From positions 3,173,501 through 3,237,500 of the forward strand of contig NZ_CP150917.1 of NCBI RefSeq assembly GCF_039908645.1: a stretch of DNA of 64,000 nucleotides. The letters are read 5' to 3'. Position numbers and translations under genes: made by a program. Below the pieces are notes generated by a model. It searched no databases. It saw nothing but the letters and a program-made list of their open reading frames with translations, and had not been told where the DNA came from. Shown here one piece after another: positions 34,635-42,381 of this stretch. The stretch comes from Pseudomonas helvetica (GTDB taxonomy: Bacteria > Pseudomonadota > Gammaproteobacteria > Pseudomonadales > Pseudomonadaceae). The first letter of the stretch is position 1. Each line of letters starts with the position of its first letter.

Positions 34635-37600
34635 ATGAAAGGCAAGTCTCGCAACAACGGACCTGTGCAAATCGGCATCAGCCGCAAGGCCAAAGCTCTC
34701 AATGGAGCCTTTATCGCTTATATGGCGGCGATCGGGGTCGCTCAGGCCGCGCCCTATGTGGAAAGCGCCAAGCTCGGCGATCCGAACAGCTGGCGCAGTC
34801 CCGAATTCAACGCCGAGTGGGGGCTGGGCGCGATCAACGCCCAGGATGCCTACGCAGCCGGGTACACCGGTAAAGGCGTCAAGTTGGGCATCTTCGATCA
34901 ACCGGTCTACGCCAAACACCCGGAGTTTTCCGGCGTGGATAAAGTAGTGACGCTGATCACCAGCGGTATCCGCGAATACACCGACCCCTACATTCCGGTC
35001 AAAGCCGGAGATGCCTTTCGGTATGACGGCACACCGACGATAGGTTCCGACGGCAAGCTGGGGTACCACGGTACTCACGTCGGCGGGATTGCCGCCGGCA
35101 GCCGCGATGGCAGTCCGATGCACGGTGTGGCGTTCAACGCGCAAATCATCAGCGCTGACAACGGCGACCCGGGACCTGAAGACGGGATCATTCTCGGCAA
35201 CGACGGCGCGGTCTACAAAGCCGGCTGGGACGGCCTACGAGAAAGCGGCGCGCGGATCATCAACAACAGCTGGGGCATCGGCATCACCGATCGCTTCAAA
35301 AAGGGCGGCAAGGACCCGGCGTTCCCGCATTTCACCGTGCAGGACGGCCAGGCACAGTTCGATCAGATCCAGCCGCTGCTCAACACCAAACAGGGCGGTG
35401 CGTACCGGGGCGCCATCGACGCGGCGCGCAGCGGTATCGTGACCATCTTCGCCGCGGGTAACGACTACAACCTCAACAACCCGGACTCGATTGCCGGCCT
35501 GGGCTACTTCGTGCCGGACATTGCCGCAAACTGGGTCACGGTCGCGGCGCTGCAAATGAACCCGGACACCACTAGCGCCAATCCCTACATCATCAGCACC
35601 TTCTCGTCGCGTTGCGGTTATACCGCAGGCTTTTGTGTGTCGGCACCGGGTACCAAGATCTACAGCGCGGTGCTCGGCGGCACCAACGCCGATGACCTGA
35701 CCGTGGGCTATGCCAACAAGAACGGCACCTCGATGGCCGCGCCACACGTTGCCGGCGCCACTGCCGTGTTGATGGAACGTTTCCCGTACATGACCGGCGC
35801 GCAGGTCGCCACGGTGCTGAAAACCACCGCCACCGACATGGGCGCACCGGGCATCGATTCGTTATACGGCTGGGGCATGATCAACCTGCGCAAGGGCATC
35901 GACGGCCCCGGCATGTTTGTGGCCGATGCCGACATTCCGCAGGAATTCCGAGTGGACGGGTCCTATGGCTCCGGCCAGTTTGTCGCCGACCTGCCAGGCA
36001 TTGGTGCGGTCATCGATGCCGGCAAGCCAACGCAGCGGATCTGTAACGACATCAGTTGCGGGTTTGACGTCTGGCGCAACGATATTTCCGGCCACGGCGG
36101 CTTGACCAAGCAGGGCATCGGCACGCTGGTGATGACCGGCAGCAACACGTATGCCGGGCCAACATTGGTGAATCAGGGGCGGTTGGCGGTCAACGGTTCG
36201 TTGCTGTCGGCGGTCACGGTCAACGACAGCGGCATCCTCGGTGGCTCCGGGCAGGTCGGCGCATTGACCGCGAAAAGCGGCGGCACCGTTGCGCCGGGCA
36301 ACTCGATCGGCACTTTGCACGTGGCCGGCGATGTGACCTTCGAGCCCGGCTCGACCTATGCCGTCGAGCTGTCCCCGACCAGCAGCGACAGCATTGTTGC
36401 CGGTGGCACAGCCACGATCCAGGGCGCGACCGTGAGCCTGTCGCGGGAAAACAGCCCGACGCTGTTAAGCCCCGGCGACGTGCGCAGCCTGATCGGTCAT
36501 CAGTACAACATCCTGCAAGCGGCCGGCGGTATCCAGGGCCAGTTCGGCGCGGTGTTGCCGAACTACGCGTTTATCGGTGGCAGCCTCGATTACTCGGCGA
36601 CCGGCGTGCAATTGGCGATCGAGCGCAATGGCAACGCCTTCGCCAGCGTCGGGCAAACCCCGAATCAACGCTCCGTGGCTGTCGCTGCCGAACATCTGGG
36701 CGCGGGCAACGCCGTGTATGAAAGCCTGCTGTTGTCGCCGAACGCGGCGAGCGCGCAGCAAGCCTTCCAGCAATTGTCCGGAGAAATTCATCCGGCGATC
36801 GGCACCTTGCTGGTCAACGACTCGCGCTATCTGCGTGATGCCGTTGGTGAGCGCCTGCGCGATGGTGGTCTGTATGACGCCGCAACGCCGAACAGCGCCG
36901 AGAACAACGCCTGGGTCAAAGTCCTGGGCGCCTGGGGCAAGACTGACAGCGGCCACGACAACGCCAACTACACCAGCTCCATCGGCGGTCTGCTGGCCGG
37001 GGCCGACGGTTTGATTGCCGACCACACGCGCCTGGGTTTCGTCACCGGTTACAGCAACAGTTCGCTGAACATGGGCGATGGCACCCATTCTTCCGCCACG
37101 GTCGACAGCTACCACTTGGGCCTGTACGCCGGGCATGAAATGGATGCGCTGCGTCTGAGCGTCGGCGGTGCGTACAGCTGGCACCGTATCGATGCCAAAC
37201 GCGACCTACAGTTCGGCGATGTCAGTGCCAAGCAGAAATCCAAGCGCGATGCCCACACCACACAAGTGTTCACTGAGGCGGCTTATCGCCTGGACCTGCA
37301 GCCGTTGGCACTGGAGCCGTTCGCCAATCTGGCCTATGTGCACCTGGACAGTGACAGTTTCACCGAGAAGGGCGGTGCGGCGGCGCTCAAGGGCGGCGAC
37401 GACAATCGTGACGCGGTGCTTTCCACACTGGGTCTGCGAGCGAGCAAACGCCTGGCACTCACCGAACATCAGCAACTCGACCTGTCCGGGACCCTCGGCT
37501 GGCAGCACAACCTGAGCAACATCCACGCCGAGGAAAACCTCGCGTTTGCCTCCGGCAGTACGCCGTTCGCCGTGCAGAGCGTTGCCATGGACCGCAATGC

Positions 37601-37730
37601 GGCGGTGGTCGGTGTTCGCGCAGGGCTGGCGTTGGCACGCGATGTCTCGCTGAACCTGGATTACAACGGACTGCTGGGCTCGCGGGACAAGACCCACGGC
37701 GTCGGGCTGACCCTCGACTGGCAGTTCTGA
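34635..37730 (+). CDS. prtB: Second autotransporter subtilisin-like serine protease
   Basis: 1031 aa, same architecture as prtA: signal peptide (to about 37, AQAA), S8 domain, passenger-associated repeat (GIGTLVMTGSNTYAGPTLVNQG), linker and beta-barrel ending DWQF. The catalytic triad is Asp88 (IFDQPVY), His145 (YHGTHVGG) and Ser366 (NGTSMAAPH). The Asp is followed by Gln rather than the usual Ser/Thr-Gly, and the loop before His is longer, so specificity probably differs from PrtA. AGGAAGG lies before the ATG. The pair arose by tandem duplication. Confidence 0.93.
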   Translation: MKGKSRNNGPVQIGISRKAKALNGAFIAYMAAIGVAQAAPYVESAKLGDPNSWRSPEFNAEWGLGAINAQDAYAAGYTGKGVKLGIFDQPVYAKHPEFSGVDKVVTLITSGIREYTDPYIPVKAGDAFRYDGTPTIGSDGKLGYHGTHVGGIAAGSRDGSPMHGVAFNAQIISADNGDPGPEDGIILGNDGAVYKAGWDGLRESGARIINNSWGIGITDRFKKGGKDPAFPHFTVQDGQAQFDQIQPLLNTKQGGAYRGAIDAARSGIVTIFAAGNDYNLNNPDSIAGLGYFVPDIAANWVTVAALQMNPDTTSANPYIISTFSSRCGYTAGFCVSAPGTKIYSAVLGGTNADDLTVGYANKNGTSMAAPHVAGATAVLMERFPYMTGAQVATVLKTTATDMGAPGIDSLYGWGMINLRKGIDGPGMFVADADIPQEFRVDGSYGSGQFVADLPGIGAVIDAGKPTQRICNDISCGFDVWRNDISGHGGLTKQGIGTLVMTGSNTYAGPTLVNQGRLAVNGSLLSAVTVNDSGILGGSGQVGALTAKSGGTVAPGNSIGTLHVAGDVTFEPGSTYAVELSPTSSDSIVAGGTATIQGATVSLSRENSPTLLSPGDVRSLIGHQYNILQAAGGIQGQFGAVLPNYAFIGGSLDYSATGVQLAIERNGNAFASVGQTPNQRSVAVAAEHLGAGNAVYESLLLSPNAASAQQAFQQLSGEIHPAIGTLLVNDSRYLRDAVGERLRDGGLYDAATPNSAENNAWVKVLGAWGKTDSGHDNANYTSSIGGLLAGADGLIADHTRLGFVTGYSNSSLNMGDGTHSSATVDSYHLGLYAGHEMDALRLSVGGAYSWHRIDAKRDLQFGDVSAKQKSKRDAHTTQVFTEAAYRLDLQPLALEPFANLAYVHLDSDSFTEKGGAAALKGGDDNRDAVLSTLGLRASKRLALTEHQQLDLSGTLGWQHNLSNIHAEENLAFASGSTPFAVQSVAMDRNAAVVGVRAGLALARDVSLNLDYNGLLGSRDKTHGVGLTLDWQF

Positions 37731-37773: not shown

Positions 37774-39468
37774 ATGGGTGTTTTTGATTACAGGAAGTTC
37801 GGCAGCGAGGCCAGCAAGGCCTTGTACAGCGATGCGATTGCATTGACGCTGTACGCCTACACGCCGACTGGCAAGCCATTGGCTACCGGCTGGACGCCGG
37901 TCACCGCCGGGCAATTGGGCTATCAAGGCAAGGTCGGCGCCCAGGGCACCTTCTTTGGCGAGCAGGAAGGTTTTACCAGCGCCGAAGCCGAAGTGCTGGC
38001 CAAGTACGACGCGGCAGGCAAGCTGATCTCCCTCGGCATCGCGTTCCGCGGGACCGGAGGCCTGGGTTACAGCGACACCTACGGCGACATGAAGAACAAT
38101 CTGCTGGCCGCTGTCGGCCCGACGGATTATGCGAAGAACTACGCCAAAAGCGCCTTCGATAACTTGCTCAAGGACGTTGCCGCGTTCGCCAGCGCCAAGG
38201 GCCTGAATGCCAAGGACGTGCTGATCACCGGCCACAGCCTCGGAGGCCTGGGCGCCAACAGCGTGGCCGAATTGAGTGCCGACCACTGGGGCGGTTACTT
38301 CAAGGATGCCAACTACATGACCTTCGCCTCGCCGACGCAAAGCCCGGCGGGCACCCATGTGTTGAACATCGGTTACGAAAACGACCCGGTGTTTCGTGTG
38401 CTCGACGGCACCACCTTCACCAGTTCATCGCTGTACAAGCACGACAAGGTTCAGGACTCGGCGACCAACAACATCGTCAATGTCAACGACCACTACGTCT
38501 CCACCCAGATGACCCCGTTCAGCATTGCCAACCCGCAACACTGGGCGGCCCATAGCTCCCTCGGCTATGCCGACGGCCTGAACCGGGTGATCGGCTCGAG
38601 CTTCTACGACCTCACCAGCAAGGACTCGACGATCCTCGTCTCGACCTTGTCGGAGTCGTTGCGCGCCAGCACCTGGATCGAAGACCTGGGCCGCAGTGGT
38701 GAAACACACACCGGCAGTACCTTCATCATCGGCACCGATAGCAACGATTTGCTGCGCGGCGGCGTCGGCAATGACTTCCTTGAAGGCCGCGACGGTAATG
38801 ACACCTTCAGGGACGCGGGTGGCAACAACATCCTGCTGGGCGGCAAAGGGCAGAACGTTTTCGACCTGCAACAGCCGCTGAAGAACTTCACCTTTGCCAA
38901 CGATGGCGACGGCACGCTGTATGTGCGCGACAGCTACGGCGGCATCAGCATCACCCGCGACATCGGCGCACTGGTCAGCAAGGAATCGGGGGCGATGTGG
39001 GGCCTGCTGAACAAGGACGTTACCTACAACGTTACCGCCAAAGGTTTGTTGGCCGGCACCGAGCTGACTCACTACAACCACTCGCTCAATGGCGATGCCT
39101 ATGGCAATTCGCTGGTGGCGACCGCCGACGGTGACTGGCTGTTCGGGTTGTCGGGCAACGACGTGCTGCGCAGCGACAAGAGTCAGGTGACGTTCGTCGG
39201 CGGCGAGGGCAATGACGTCATGTATGCCTCCGGCGGCCACAACACTTTCCTGTTCAGCGGTGCGTTCGGTTTCGACGCCATCAATGGTTACCAGGGCAGC
39301 GACAAGCTGGTGTTCATGGGCGTTCAAGGCGCAGGGCAGGGCTATGACTACAGCCAGCACGTTTCGCAATCGGGTAACGACACGCTGCTCAAGGTCGGCG
39401 ACTACGCGGTGACGCTGGTGGGTGTCGGCCTGAATAACCTGTCGGGTGCGGAGATCATATTTGCTTAA
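37774..39468 (+). CDS. pueB: Family I.3 lipase/polyurethanase lacking the segment that carries lid 1
   Basis: 564 aa. The N-terminal alpha/beta-hydrolase has GHSLGG with nucleophile Ser155; the C-terminal part carries RTX repeats (GGVGNDFLEGRDGNDTF), a second glycine-rich set, and a hydrophobic end (LSGAEIIFA) that serves as the type I secretion signal. Compared with the 617-aa lipase encoded next, about 53 residues are missing between LTLYAY and GWTPVTA. That is where family I.3 lipases hold lid 1. Its size and place match PueB of P. protegens and P. chlororaphis. Exported by AprDEF. AGAGG precedes the ATG. Confidence 0.9.
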   Translation: MGVFDYRKFGSEASKALYSDAIALTLYAYTPTGKPLATGWTPVTAGQLGYQGKVGAQGTFFGEQEGFTSAEAEVLAKYDAAGKLISLGIAFRGTGGLGYSDTYGDMKNNLLAAVGPTDYAKNYAKSAFDNLLKDVAAFASAKGLNAKDVLITGHSLGGLGANSVAELSADHWGGYFKDANYMTFASPTQSPAGTHVLNIGYENDPVFRVLDGTTFTSSSLYKHDKVQDSATNNIVNVNDHYVSTQMTPFSIANPQHWAAHSSLGYADGLNRVIGSSFYDLTSKDSTILVSTLSESLRASTWIEDLGRSGETHTGSTFIIGTDSNDLLRGGVGNDFLEGRDGNDTFRDAGGNNILLGGKGQNVFDLQQPLKNFTFANDGDGTLYVRDSYGGISITRDIGALVSKESGAMWGLLNKDVTYNVTAKGLLAGTELTHYNHSLNGDAYGNSLVATADGDWLFGLSGNDVLRSDKSQVTFVGGEGNDVMYASGGHNTFLFSGAFGFDAINGYQGSDKLVFMGVQGAGQGYDYSQHVSQSGNDTLLKVGDYAVTLVGVGLNNLSGAEIIFA

Positions 39469-39561: not shown

Positions 39562-41415
39562 ATGGGTGTCTATGACTACAAAAACCACAACTCAGCCGAA
39601 TCCAAAGCGCTGTTTTCCGATGCGCTGGCGATCACGCTGTACTCCTATCACAACCTCGACAATGGCTTTGCCACGGGCTATCAGCACAATGGTTTCGGCC
39701 TTGGGCTGCCGGCGACGCTGGTCACTGCGCTGATCGGCGGCACCGACTCGCAAGGGGTGATTCCCGGCGTTCCCTGGAACCCCGATTCGGAAAAAGCTGC
39801 GCTGGACGCGGTACAAAAGGCCGGTTGGACCCCGATCACCGCCAGCCAGTTAGGCTATGGCGGCAAGGTCGATGTGCGGGGAACCTTCTTCGGCGAGAAA
39901 GCCGGTTACACCAGCGCTCAGGTCGAGATCCTCGGCAAGTACGACGTTCAAGGCCATCTCACCGAAATCGGTATCGCGTTTCGCGGCACCAGCGGCCCAC
40001 GTGAAATACAGATCAGCGACTCCATCGGCGATGTGATCAACGACCTGATGGCGGCGCTCGGGCCCAAGGACTACGCCAAGAACTACGTCGGCGAAGCCTT
40101 TGGTTCATTGCTCAAGAATGTCGCCGCATTTGCCACCGCCAATGGCCTGAGCGGCAAGGACGTACTGGTCAGCGGCCACAGCCTCGGCGGGTTGGCGGTC
40201 AATAGCCTGGCGGACCTGAGCGGCGATCACTGGAACGGCTTCTACAAGGATTCCAACTACATCGCCTACGCGTCACCGACCCAAAGCAGTACCGACAAGG
40301 TGCTCAACATCGGTTACGAAAACGACCCGGTATTCCGTGCGCTGGACGGTTCAACGTTCAACCTGGCATCGGTCGGCGTACACGATGCGCATCAGGATTC
40401 GGCAACCAACAACATCGTCAGCTTCAACGACCATTACGCCTCGGCGGCATGGAACATGTTGCCGTTTTCGATCCTCAATGTCCCGACCTGGATTTCCCAT
40501 CTGCCCACCGGTTACGGCGATGGCATGACCCGGGTGCTGGAGTCGAAGTTCTACGACCTGACCAGCAAGGACTCGACAATCATCGTCGCCAACCTGTCGG
40601 ACCCGGCGCGCAGCAACACCTGGGTTCAGGACCTCAACCGCAACGCCGAGCCGCACAAGGGCAGCACCTTTATTATCGGCAGTAACGGTGACGATTTGAT
40701 CCAGGGCGGCAACGGTAATGACTATCTGGAGGGCGGCGATGGCAACGACACCTTCAGGGATGCCGGTGGTTACAACATCCTGTTGGGCGGCAAGGGCAGC
40801 AACACGCTGGACTTGCAGCAATCAGTAAAAAACTTCAATTTTGCCAGCGATGGCGCCGACACCTTGTACGTGCGCGATGCGAATGGCGGGATCAGTATCA
40901 CCCGCGATATCGGCAGCATCATCAGTAAAGAACCGGGTTTTCTCTGGGGTTTACTCAAGGATGACGTGACCCATAGCGTCACCGACAAAGGCTTGCAGGT
41001 CGGCAATAACCTGACCCAGTACGCGTCATCGGTGAAGGGCAACGCGGGAGACAATGTCCTCACGGCGCATGCAGCTGGCGACTGGCTGTTTGGCCTGGAC
41101 GGCAATGATCATCTGATCGGCGGCAAGGGCAATGACGTGTTTGTCGGCGGTGCCGGTAATGACCTGATGGAGTCGGGAGGCGGCAGCAACACCTTCCTGT
41201 TCAGTGGCCACTTCGGCAACGACCGGATCCTCGGCTACCAGAGCAGCGACAAGCTGGTCTTCCTCGGCGTCGAAGGCGTGGGGCAAAACTACGACGTACG
41301 TGACCACGCCAAAGCGGTTGGCGCCGATACCGTATTGAGCTTCGGTAATGACTCGGTGACGCTGGTCGGGGTTGGGCTGGATCACCTGGCCAGTTCAGGC
41401 GTGGTAATCGCCTGA
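39562..41415 (+). CDS. lipA: Family I.3 lipase/polyurethanase (TliA/PueA type)
   Basis: 617 aa, exactly the size of the well-studied Pseudomonas sp. MIS38 lipase, with the nucleophile in GHSLGG at Ser207 as in that enzyme. Lid 1 (GFATGYQHNGFGLGLPATLV..) is present, unlike in the upstream paralogue. RTX repeats (GGNGNDYLEGGDGNDTF and IGGKGNDVFVGGAGND) bind calcium, and the C-terminus (LASSGVVIA) is the type I export signal. It hydrolyses triglycerides and, in related strains, polyester polyurethane. Also named tliA or pueA. AGAGGCAAT precedes the ATG. Confidence 0.95.
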   Translation: MGVYDYKNHNSAESKALFSDALAITLYSYHNLDNGFATGYQHNGFGLGLPATLVTALIGGTDSQGVIPGVPWNPDSEKAALDAVQKAGWTPITASQLGYGGKVDVRGTFFGEKAGYTSAQVEILGKYDVQGHLTEIGIAFRGTSGPREIQISDSIGDVINDLMAALGPKDYAKNYVGEAFGSLLKNVAAFATANGLSGKDVLVSGHSLGGLAVNSLADLSGDHWNGFYKDSNYIAYASPTQSSTDKVLNIGYENDPVFRALDGSTFNLASVGVHDAHQDSATNNIVSFNDHYASAAWNMLPFSILNVPTWISHLPTGYGDGMTRVLESKFYDLTSKDSTIIVANLSDPARSNTWVQDLNRNAEPHKGSTFIIGSNGDDLIQGGNGNDYLEGGDGNDTFRDAGGYNILLGGKGSNTLDLQQSVKNFNFASDGADTLYVRDANGGISITRDIGSIISKEPGFLWGLLKDDVTHSVTDKGLQVGNNLTQYASSVKGNAGDNVLTAHAAGDWLFGLDGNDHLIGGKGNDVFVGGAGNDLMESGGGSNTFLFSGHFGNDRILGYQSSDKLVFLGVEGVGQNYDVRDHAKAVGADTVLSFGNDSVTLVGVGLDHLASSGVVIA

Positions 41416-41451
41416 CGTTAAAAAGCCCGGCGCGAACCTCGGTTCGCGTCG

Positions 41452-41628
41452 CAATGCTGTTCACTTAAGCCGATGTTTCAGGCTCATCCGCAGTTGTGGC
41501 GAGGGAGCTTGCTCCCGCTGGACTGCGTAGCAGGCCCAAATCAGGGCCGCTTCGCACCCCAGCGGGAGCAAGCTCCCTCGCCACAGATACTTCTCAGGCC
41601 TCCAGACTTCCTTAAGTGAACAGCATTG
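41452..41628. mobile_element. 177-bp MITE-like element with 18-bp terminal inverted repeats
   Basis: It starts CAATGCTGTTCACTTAAG (41452-41469) and ends with the exact reverse complement (41611-41628). It is flanked by perfect 12-bp direct repeats CGGTTCGCGTCG at 41440-41451 and 41629-41640. No coding frame is present. Inside lies an inverted REP pair. The direct repeats restore a terminator when one copy is removed, which shows a true insertion. Target duplications of 10-13 bp fit mobilisation by an IS4-family transposase; that is inference. Confidence 0.85.
41495..41586. repeat. Inverted REP pair (REPIN) inside the MITE-like element
   Basis: TGTGGCGAGGGAGCTTGCTCCCGCTGG and, reversed, the same sequence, separated by about 38 bp. 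It is the same family as the truncated REP at 18699. Confidence 0.9.
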
Positions 41629-41653
41629 CGGTTCGCGTCGGGCTTTTCAGCGT

Positions 41654-42097
41654 TTATTCATAGTGAATCACGATGCCCTTGAGCTTGCGTCTCTGCTCGG
41701 AATGGAGATCCCGGTCCAGCGGAAGCGCGACGCTGACGTAATCCGAAATGGGTAGGGTCATGTCGTAGATCACCACCACCGCATCGCCGCCGATTTTCGC
41801 CGCTTCTTCACGCAGTCTCTGCTCGAACTCGCTGACGGGCGGGGCCGGCTGCGTGCGTGTGTGAAGAATCACTTCACCCAACCGCGTGTACGGTCGTGTC
41901 GGCGCGGTACGCAGTATTTGCACCGAGTCCGGGGACGTCGCGGTTGTGTGCTGGGCCCCGGCGTATTCGGTGGTGTGTGCGTGGATACTGCTGCACGCAC
42001 TGAGCCCGAATACGGTAAGGGCCAGTGCCAGCACTTTGAAGCCGGGCAGGGGAAGCGCGAAGTCCTTATCGCTCAATGGGCGTTGTAGGGGCTGCAC
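41654..42097 (-). CDS. Small lipoprotein of unknown function
   Basis: 147 aa. A signal peptide with lipobox LSAC (about residues 32-35, ..VFGLSACSS) is followed by a short linker and a compact domain with TRLGEVILHTR, EFEQRLREEAAKIGGDAVVVIYD. The last motif (aK.GGDAVv) recurs in small envelope lipoproteins of the YajI/DUF4156-like kind. The start is GTG at 42097 with AAGGA nine bases upstream. It is convergent with the lipase gene across the split terminator, so read-through from the lipase side could produce antisense RNA. Confidence 0.75.
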   Translation of the reverse strand: MQPLQRPLSDKDFALPLPGFKVLALALTVFGLSACSSIHAHTTEYAGAQHTTATSPDSVQILRTAPTRPYTRLGEVILHTRTQPAPPVSEFEQRLREEAAKIGGDAVVVIYDMTLPISDYVSVALPLDRDLHSEQRRKLKGIVIHYE

Positions 42098-42381
42098 GCT
42101 GGTAATTCCTTCTGATTGAAAAAGGTGACCTGTCGCTACACGACAGGCTCAAATACCGGACAAAAGCGTTTTCCCAGGCTCAGGAAAGCGCCCGTCGACT
42201 CTGAAAAGCATAGCCACAATGTTCCGGTGAGCCAGGCCTAAATCAGAATTTTGCGGGTGTGCCCCAGTTTTTTTTTTGCCATGGCATTAAACCACCGGGC
42301 AGGCCATGCGTTTCCAGAGGGCGCCACCTTCGAGCAGCACAGACACCAGGCGCGGTGAACCGAAACAGGAGATTGAACACA

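Follow-up and report, generated by a model that had tools for sequence, protein, structure and literature searches.

Sampled insertion sites suggest that terminator-like hairpins are the habitual target of the group of elements to which a 177-bp repeat of Pseudomonas helvetica belongs, a pattern that the earlier note on this DNA overlooked. At 75 of 85 insertion sites, the target-site duplication (9–14 bp) was centred within 2 nt of a hairpin dyad. The repeat lies in the 64,000-nt stretch of DNA that we analysed (the window), and from its sequence we classify it as an IS4-type MITE because other Pseudomonas species carry IS4-subgroup insertion sequences (ISs) with the same 18-bp ends.

An IS4-type MITE between convergent genes

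The MITE interrupts a predicted terminator hairpin that separates a PueAB-type polyurethanase gene from a small convergent gene. The features of this region of the window are the following.

39562..41415, + strand: upstream gene, polyurethane esterase (PueAB), 617 aa (NCBIfam NF050046, 987.7 bits, cut-off 670)
41420..41439, + strand: interrupted hairpin, A-tract (41420–41424) and 5' arm; 41421–41438 pairs with 41630–41647 in the predicted RNA fold
41440..41451, + strand: target-site duplication, left copy, 12 bp, CGGTTCGCGTCG
41452..41628, no strand assigned: MITE of the IS4 subgroup, 177 bp, with exact 18-bp ends and 12 more relatives in the genome
41452..41469, + strand: left terminal inverted repeat, CAATGCTGTTCACTTAAG; the autonomous IS of 1428 bp in locus L058 has identical ends
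41495..41536, + strand: core, left REP arm of the inverted REP pair (REPIN)
41544..41585, - strand: core, right REP arm of the inverted REP pair
41611..41628, - strand: right terminal inverted repeat, exact reverse complement of the left repeat
41629..41640, + strand: target-site duplication, right copy, 12 bp
41641..41647, + strand: interrupted hairpin, end of the 3' arm (GGC) and T-tract (41644–41647)
41654..42097, - strand: convergent gene, 147 aa, with an N-terminus that looks lipoprotein-like by eye

The block of 177 bp with 18-bp ends and 12-bp repeats described in the earlier note was verified to the exact coordinate. With up to three mismatches allowed, the 18-mer end occurred only twice in the window, compared with a chance mean of 0.04, and none of 100 shuffled sequences reached two occurrences; a chance palindrome was rejected as an explanation. 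The element has the properties of a MITE, being short and non-coding (no ORF of at least 100 aa spans the block in the window's ORF list), with inverted ends, a duplication perfect at 12 of 12 positions and copies at multiple genomic loci. Its GC content is 58.2%, and its two REP arms are 42 nt each and 88% complementary. No Rfam matches were found in positions 40900–42300, and the 147-aa convergent gene had no Pfam or NCBIfam match at E ≤ 0.001. On the other side, two similar lipase/polyurethanase-type genes lie next to each other (37774–39468 and 39562–41415; recognised by eye in the ORF list, the second also profile-scanned), downstream of a large autotransporter-like protease (34635–37730, by eye).

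When the block and one repeat were removed in silico, the window site folded as a terminator-type hairpin with A and T tails, that is, a predicted GC-rich hairpin followed by a U-tract, as in an intrinsic terminator. The 18-bp stem that the earlier note had proposed to be restored in this way (41421–41438 with 41630–41647) holds if four A:T pairs and one G.T pair are counted. In a 40-nt window, the reconstructed empty site was the strongest among the ten intact copies in this genome (-24.6 kcal/mol). The TTT starts 3 nt past the duplication, which is the commonest spacing in the element group. However, the duplication lies in the 3' half of the hairpin, its centre 6 nt to the right of the dyad; the other nine intact copies have duplications centred on the dyad.

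The exact 18-mer was present in 13 of the 149 Pseudomonas genomes sampled (a count that includes this one), and in other Pseudomonas there are IS4-subgroup ISs of 1.42–1.43 kb that have these 18-bp ends, with C or T as the first base. In L058, the 18-mer bounds a 1428-bp IS (the same insertion as L098 of P. veronii) with a 445-aa transposase that matched the Pfam families Nterm_IS4 (91.3 bits) and DDE_Tnp_1 (90.1 bits) as well as the NCBIfam IS4-family model NF033592 (264.5 bits), all over the cut-off; its YREK motif was read in translation as YHERWEIELGFRDIK. The ends of the L058 IS are identical to those of the window element, and those of L298–L304 and of the shorter L310 are identical except for base 1. 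Parent-type ISs make duplications of 9–14 bp, about one helix turn, and have 5'-CA ends with a relaxed first base, as expected of the IS4 subgroup. With these shared ends, the two domains of the L058 transposase and 13 related loci in this genome, the earlier attribution of the insertion to an IS4-family enzyme is well supported, and the full-length IS that the earlier note proposed to look for does exist in Pseudomonas (L058, for example), outside this genome.

Relatives of the L058 transposase were found at E ≤ 1e-20 in 36 of 398 Pseudomonas genomes. The same search gave no match at this threshold in the genome of the window (G000), so the MITEs here are orphans. A PF01609 scan of this genome identified two DDE genes (L082, L083), neither bounded by element ends, and no recognisable transposase was seen by eye among the listed ORFs at its loci with single or diverged ends (L047, L049, L050). 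In another genome, G046 (L057, L345, L346), a derivative of approximately 690 bp retains parts of the transposase gene, and further copies open with its start. These three loci, with part of L057 masked, are steps between IS and MITE within one genome.

Across the single 6.44-Mb contig of G000, the element is matched, with one end or both, at 13 loci, of which ten hold intact copies of 176–178 bp and three hold damaged copies (L011, L012, L016). The duplications of the intact copies are 11–13 bp long and perfect in seven of the ten. The earlier note had proposed that the element is a vehicle that spreads REPs. This holds in part, since each of the 13 copies contains the REP pair and some IS4-type MITEs of other genomes have REP-like cores as well. 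However, the REP pair was also found at no fewer than 27 loci that lack MITE ends (a lower bound, from 40 scored of 359 candidates), so the pair also spreads in some other way. The two REPs are inverted and also occur without the MITE, as is the case for REPINs, and the genome has one Y1_Tnp gene (PF01797, 43.8 bits), at L295. By reading, a REP-pair-like core as in the window element was recognised in IS4-type MITEs of G030, G049 and G125, another palindrome type in those of G069 and G082, and no REP-like core in IS4-type elements of G046, G058, G083 and G087. The REP-like MITE cores seen elsewhere (L331, L332, L333–L337, L343) include at least two palindrome types. MITEs carrying REP cores in several genomes, as recognised by reading, were not met in the literature searched, most subscription journals being outside it.

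Two minor variations were seen in this genome. The loop between the REP arms (window 41530–41550) is inverted relative to the outer parts in 2 of the 13 copies, the window's own (L001) and L002, an arrangement that recombination between the long REP arms would produce. An element of approximately 209 bp at L041:1501–1710 (G000:C1:2969574) has the same 18-bp end, with T as its first base, and a different REP-like core.

An empty counterpart was found for the damaged copy L011. Its flanking gene is conserved (match in 397 of 398 genomes, own included), and none of the 29 best-matching relatives has an element end within 500 bp of the orthologous site. There, L348, L352, L355, L373 and others have an intact GGCCTCC...GGAGGCC hairpin followed by a T-tract; in other relatives, no such hairpin was visible in the 115 nt inspected. 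For the window copy, 13 inspected loci, with flanks at most approximately 70% identical, had no element end near and no obvious conserved terminator. Comparison with related genomes gave an orthologous empty site for L011 but none for the window copy among those sampled. The situation named in the earlier note as speaking against a mobile element (the block in the same place in all relatives, no other copies and no empty site) did not occur, given the 13 loci and the empty site of L011.

Insertion sites across the element group

The 85 sites are natural insertions that survived selection, from Pseudomonas, Aeromonas, Acidovorax, Grimontia and E. coli (classic IS4 included). They comprise 10 of this genome's own MITEs, two sets from other Pseudomonas (5 and 14), 10 from ISs with greater than 40% identity, 12 from Acidovorax temperans, 19 from A. 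caviae (15 of an ISAeme15-type IS and 4 of a second IS) and 15 distinct sites of E. coli IS4; six distant IS4 relatives, outside the 85, served as a contrast set. A duplication was required for finding ends, but a hairpin was not. From 375 transposase relatives, 79 loci were listed and 47 examined for ends; 29 gave ends and a duplication, from which L098 was left out as a repeat of the L058 insertion. Five of the 27 loci L055–L081 entered the set, one per insertion and each containing both exact ends, and 14 of the 22 loci in the later Pseudomonas set gave ends. All 19 A. caviae loci were usable, and 22 E. coli loci were reduced to 15 distinct site sequences, representing approximately 11 places by annotation, as some are alleles (bamD/raiA; adhE). 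Removal of identical sites took 84 sites to 77, and adding the 14 later sites and subtracting the 6 distant ones gave 85. The damaged own copies (L011, L012, L016) and the further MITEs checked by reading for REP-like cores were left out.

We counted a dyad as centred when a hairpin dyad with a score of at least 15 lay within 2 nt of the centre of the duplication. Random positions had a centred dyad in 3%–4% of cases (117/3000 own and 116/3000 A. caviae, both drawn from the flanks of fetched loci rather than whole genomes, and 90/3000 E. coli). A stricter terminator call, based on stem, tract and energy, was passed by 173 of 5000 random windows of own sequence, 126 of 5000 of A. caviae sequence, and 15 of 57 AAAN18-24TTT windows of own flanks. 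The sampled insertions gave the following counts for the centred dyad and, after the semicolon, for the stricter call.

Own MITEs: 9/10; 9/10
Other Pseudomonas, first set: 3/5; 2/5
Other Pseudomonas, later set: 14/14 (centred dyad)
ISs with greater than 40% identity: 9/10; 7/10
Acidovorax temperans: 9/12; 9/12
A. caviae, ISAeme15-type: 14/15; 14/15
A. caviae, second IS: 4/4; 4/4
E. coli IS4: 13/15; 12/15
Distant IS4 relatives: 0/6; 0/6

Before the 14 later sites were included, and with no score threshold, the dyad was within 2 nt of the duplication centre in 61 of 71 sites and within 1 nt in 59. The target hairpins probably work as terminators. The distant relatives (29%–39% identity; L124, L130, L147, L150) insert at CTAG-containing sites and not at hairpins, which is a change of target rule inside the IS4 family.

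Tracts of A and T accompany the hairpins. An AAA or TTT arm begins within 6 nt of the duplication in 81 of the 85 sites, with both arms in 61, and on either side, between AAA and the duplication and between the duplication and TTT, the commonest distance is 3 nt (71 sites). The ten intact own copies are flanked by sequences that fold into a GC-rich hairpin; nine have an A- or T-tract no more than 6 nt from the duplication, and five have both tracts. At distances 2–11 from the centre, the two arms of one site were 69% (0.694) complementary, compared with 47% for arms dealt among sites and a maximum of 52% over 1000 partner shuffles. Since the arms of a site match each other beyond all 1000 shuffles, these are hairpins and not merely copies of a shared symmetric consensus.

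Ten of the 85 sites had no centred dyad. Two E. coli sites, one within yicI and one within a FAD-oxidoreductase gene, show A/T arms without a hairpin, and the K-12 IS4 site has a weak hairpin (-8.1 kcal/mol). Because of these three sites, we note that the A/T arms may weigh more than the hairpin. Four 124-bp MITEs of G046 that are outside the 85 all lie in terminator-like hairpins (4/4, by reading); the element of approximately 690 bp at L057 in the same genome has no centred hairpin (by script). At the adhE terminator of E. coli, IS4 is present in two opposite orientations in different strains (L290 versus L292/L294), indicating at least two independent hits on one terminator.

Proposed mechanism and alternatives

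We consider it probable, at roughly 85%, that the element is an IS4-subgroup MITE mobilised in trans, with a cut directed to intrinsic terminator hairpins. An IS4-type DDE transposase from a full-length relative outside this genome would have recognised the 18-bp ends of the MITE and inserted it by a staggered cut of approximately one helix turn. The cut would be directed to intrinsic (Rho-independent) terminator hairpins, with strand-transfer sites symmetric about the dyad. The duplication would then correspond to the loop and inner stem, with the A- and T-tract arms typically starting 3 bp beyond it (AAA-N3-[11-13 bp]-N3-TTT). As a palindrome within a palindromic target, the MITE would leave a site that can still fold as an extended hairpin with its base at the U-tract intact, and such refolding would make terminators tolerable landing sites. 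The REP pair would be cargo, multiplied along with the MITE. The structure of the MITE, the duplications, the copies, the parent-type ISs, the target positions at the 85 sites and the empty site of L011 can be read from the sequences themselves. One point against this interpretation is that the window copy is the sole intact copy of the ten to lie off the dyad, although its T-tract spacing fits. More tentatively, the IS4 subgroup could be a terminator-homing lineage, an idea to which we give somewhat less than even odds. Its transposase would read the terminator dyad, possibly as an extruded cruciform, together with the tracts; palindromic derivatives would be favoured because a palindrome at the centre of a palindrome re-forms the terminator and makes the jump nearly neutral, and REP pairs would use the MITEs as carriers.

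An old target rule for IS4 is AAAN20TTT, a spelling for which a text search of the literature found nothing, and a 1984 report is said to have placed IS4 in the pheST attenuator. A serious rival, albeit a less probable one, is that the transposase reads only the A- and T-tracts (AAA-N18-TTT) and that terminators are hit for supplying this spacing. Both arms are kept without a centred dyad at L215 and L278 (E. coli), L256 (A. caviae), L057, L093 and L112, just as the window copy keeps its T-tract spacing without dyad centring. Against this, AAAN17-19TTT windows had a centred dyad in 0 of 31 cases in own flanks and 5 of 70 in A. caviae (4/19 if GC-rich), versus 9 of 10 and 18 of 19 insertions, respectively. 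In E. coli the contrast is weaker, as 29 of 103 such windows had a centred dyad and the GC-rich ones were mostly hairpins (22/30, overlapping windows counted). Centred dyads with a one-sided tract (L002, L009) or with no tract within 6 nt (L004, L100), identified by reading, also argue against tracts as the only signal. Most likely, the enzyme reads the dyad and the A/T arms together, at the DNA level.

It is also improbable, in our view, that insertion is not aimed at terminators and that survivors are found mainly between convergent genes, where bidirectional terminators are. Such a 'least worst' location was proposed for P. fluorescens repeats by Silby 2009 (PMC2718517), and 9 of 12 own copies lie between convergent genes in a rough assignment by the longest ORF on each side. 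Selection on gene order, however, cannot make the duplication centre and the dyad coincide to within 1 nt at 59 of 71 sites, and the adhE terminator was hit with different duplication lengths as well as in opposite orientations; post-insertion selection alone was rejected. Equally doubtful is a transposase attracted by RNA polymerase that is pausing or terminating, or by the RNA hairpin. Most sites are terminator-like, and those in E. coli are often directly behind crr, raiA, adhE and metK, as transcription-coupled targeting would predict, but the cut is symmetrical about the DNA dyad, and a few sites are inside genes with A/T arms and no hairpin. We strongly disfavour the idea that the element is a REP/BIME unit spread by a RAYT (TnpA-REP), with ends that are part of the repeat and not of a transposon. 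The inverted REP core at loci without ends and the single Y1_Tnp gene would fit such a unit, but the 18-bp ends equal those of IS4-type ISs elsewhere, which make the same duplications, and a pure RAYT/REP element was rejected on these grounds. We know of no RAYT-type movement that leaves 11–13-bp duplications.

The preferred reading, insertion directed to terminator hairpins, bears on what happens to the terminator. The earlier note held that the insertion breaks it and could allow read-through from the lipase genes into the antisense of the next gene. By consensus scan, the occupied window site no longer contains a local terminator. In the minimum-energy fold, however, 41421–41438 pairs with 41630–41647 across the element as one long hairpin of -166.1 kcal/mol (z = -15.7; the mean of 200 shuffles was -82.7, and none was as low). 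In strand-wise folds of the ten intact copies, at least three of the four stem-base nucleotides paired with the left flank or left duplication in 19 of 20 cases. Because the predicted fold re-forms the stem base beside the U-tract, the inserted element may lengthen the terminator instead of abolishing it; the prediction is a matter of thermodynamics only, and the co-transcriptional fold may differ. Termination would survive insertion in this model, and read-through was rejected as a demonstrated effect.

Relation to known systems

Terminator targeting has a precedent in IS1272, an element of the IS1182 family. IS1272 and TnSha1 target hairpins, several of them confirmed terminators, but differ from the window element in that the hairpin is partly deleted or replaced and no target duplication is made (PMC4923244, PMC5678879). 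ISRm22 of S. meliloti is an IS4-family element found in palindromes, but these are REPs and not terminators (PMC1525189), and it belongs to the IS4Sa subgroup (PMC2266710). For the IS4 subgroup itself, target-arm specificity is known (De Palmenaer 2008, PMC2266710). The parent type shares with that subgroup the Nterm_IS4 and DDE domains, the Y-x2-R-x3-E-x6-K motif, 5'-CA/TA ends, a single ORF (445 aa) and duplications of about one helix turn; the window element differs in having no transposase. The word 'terminator' is absent from the main text of that paper.

Among described repeats, R6 of P. fluorescens Pf0-1 resembles the window MITE in being 177 bp long, intergenic and bounded by inverted repeats, with 59.1% GC (PMC2718517). 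It is present in 50 copies with 34-bp repeats in Pf0-1 and absent from SBW25 and Pf-5, and the available text links it to no IS and no target. R6 may be the window MITE's own family. A tail-to-tail bias has been reported for P. fluorescens repeats generally (Silby 2009, PMC2718517).

MITEs of ISs, arm specificity in the IS4 subgroup, hairpin targeting by IS1272, ISRm22 in REPs and the R6 repeat are therefore already known. Insertion of IS4-subgroup elements (E. coli IS4 included) at intrinsic-terminator dyads was not reported in the literature searched, from which most subscription journals were absent. This suggests that an IS4-subgroup duplication centred on the dyad of a terminator-like hairpin is new; the precedent, IS1272, makes no duplication. 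Such targeting gives biological sense to the target rule of IS4, one of the earliest insertion sequences known, with the arms being the two sides of a terminator-like hairpin in most sampled sites. Designed terminators would allow a direct test of how a DDE transposase chooses its target. As an alternative to the 'least worst location', terminator targeting also offers a mechanism behind the tail-to-tail bias seen for Pseudomonas repeats, and it suggests how a mobile element can insert beside genes at low cost. In the MITE with its REP pair, two kinds of mobile repeat are stacked in one unit.

E. coli IS4 (insG) has the terminal inverted repeat TAATGCCAGTCAGTTAAG, duplications of 11–14 bp and, as in the window's group, a dyad at the centre of most distinct sites (13/15), but differs in its internal sequence and in having some sites with A/T arms only. 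The closest named IS that we met is ISAeme15, which has 78%–79% amino acid identity to the P. veronii transposase and has been named on plasmids of A. salmonicida, A. caviae, Enterobacter and Klebsiella. The 15 copies that we call ISAeme15-type, in the unannotated A. caviae sequence NZ_AP026896.1, bear this name on the basis of the same 78%–79% identity. One of their ends equals that of the window element and the other differs at two positions; their duplications lie on hairpin dyads (14/15), and, unlike the window MITE, they are autonomous (1429 bp). The same sequence has four copies of the second IS4-type element. We note that PLSDB lists NZ_AP026896.1 as a 4.94-Mb plasmid, a size that suggests a chromosome filed as a plasmid.
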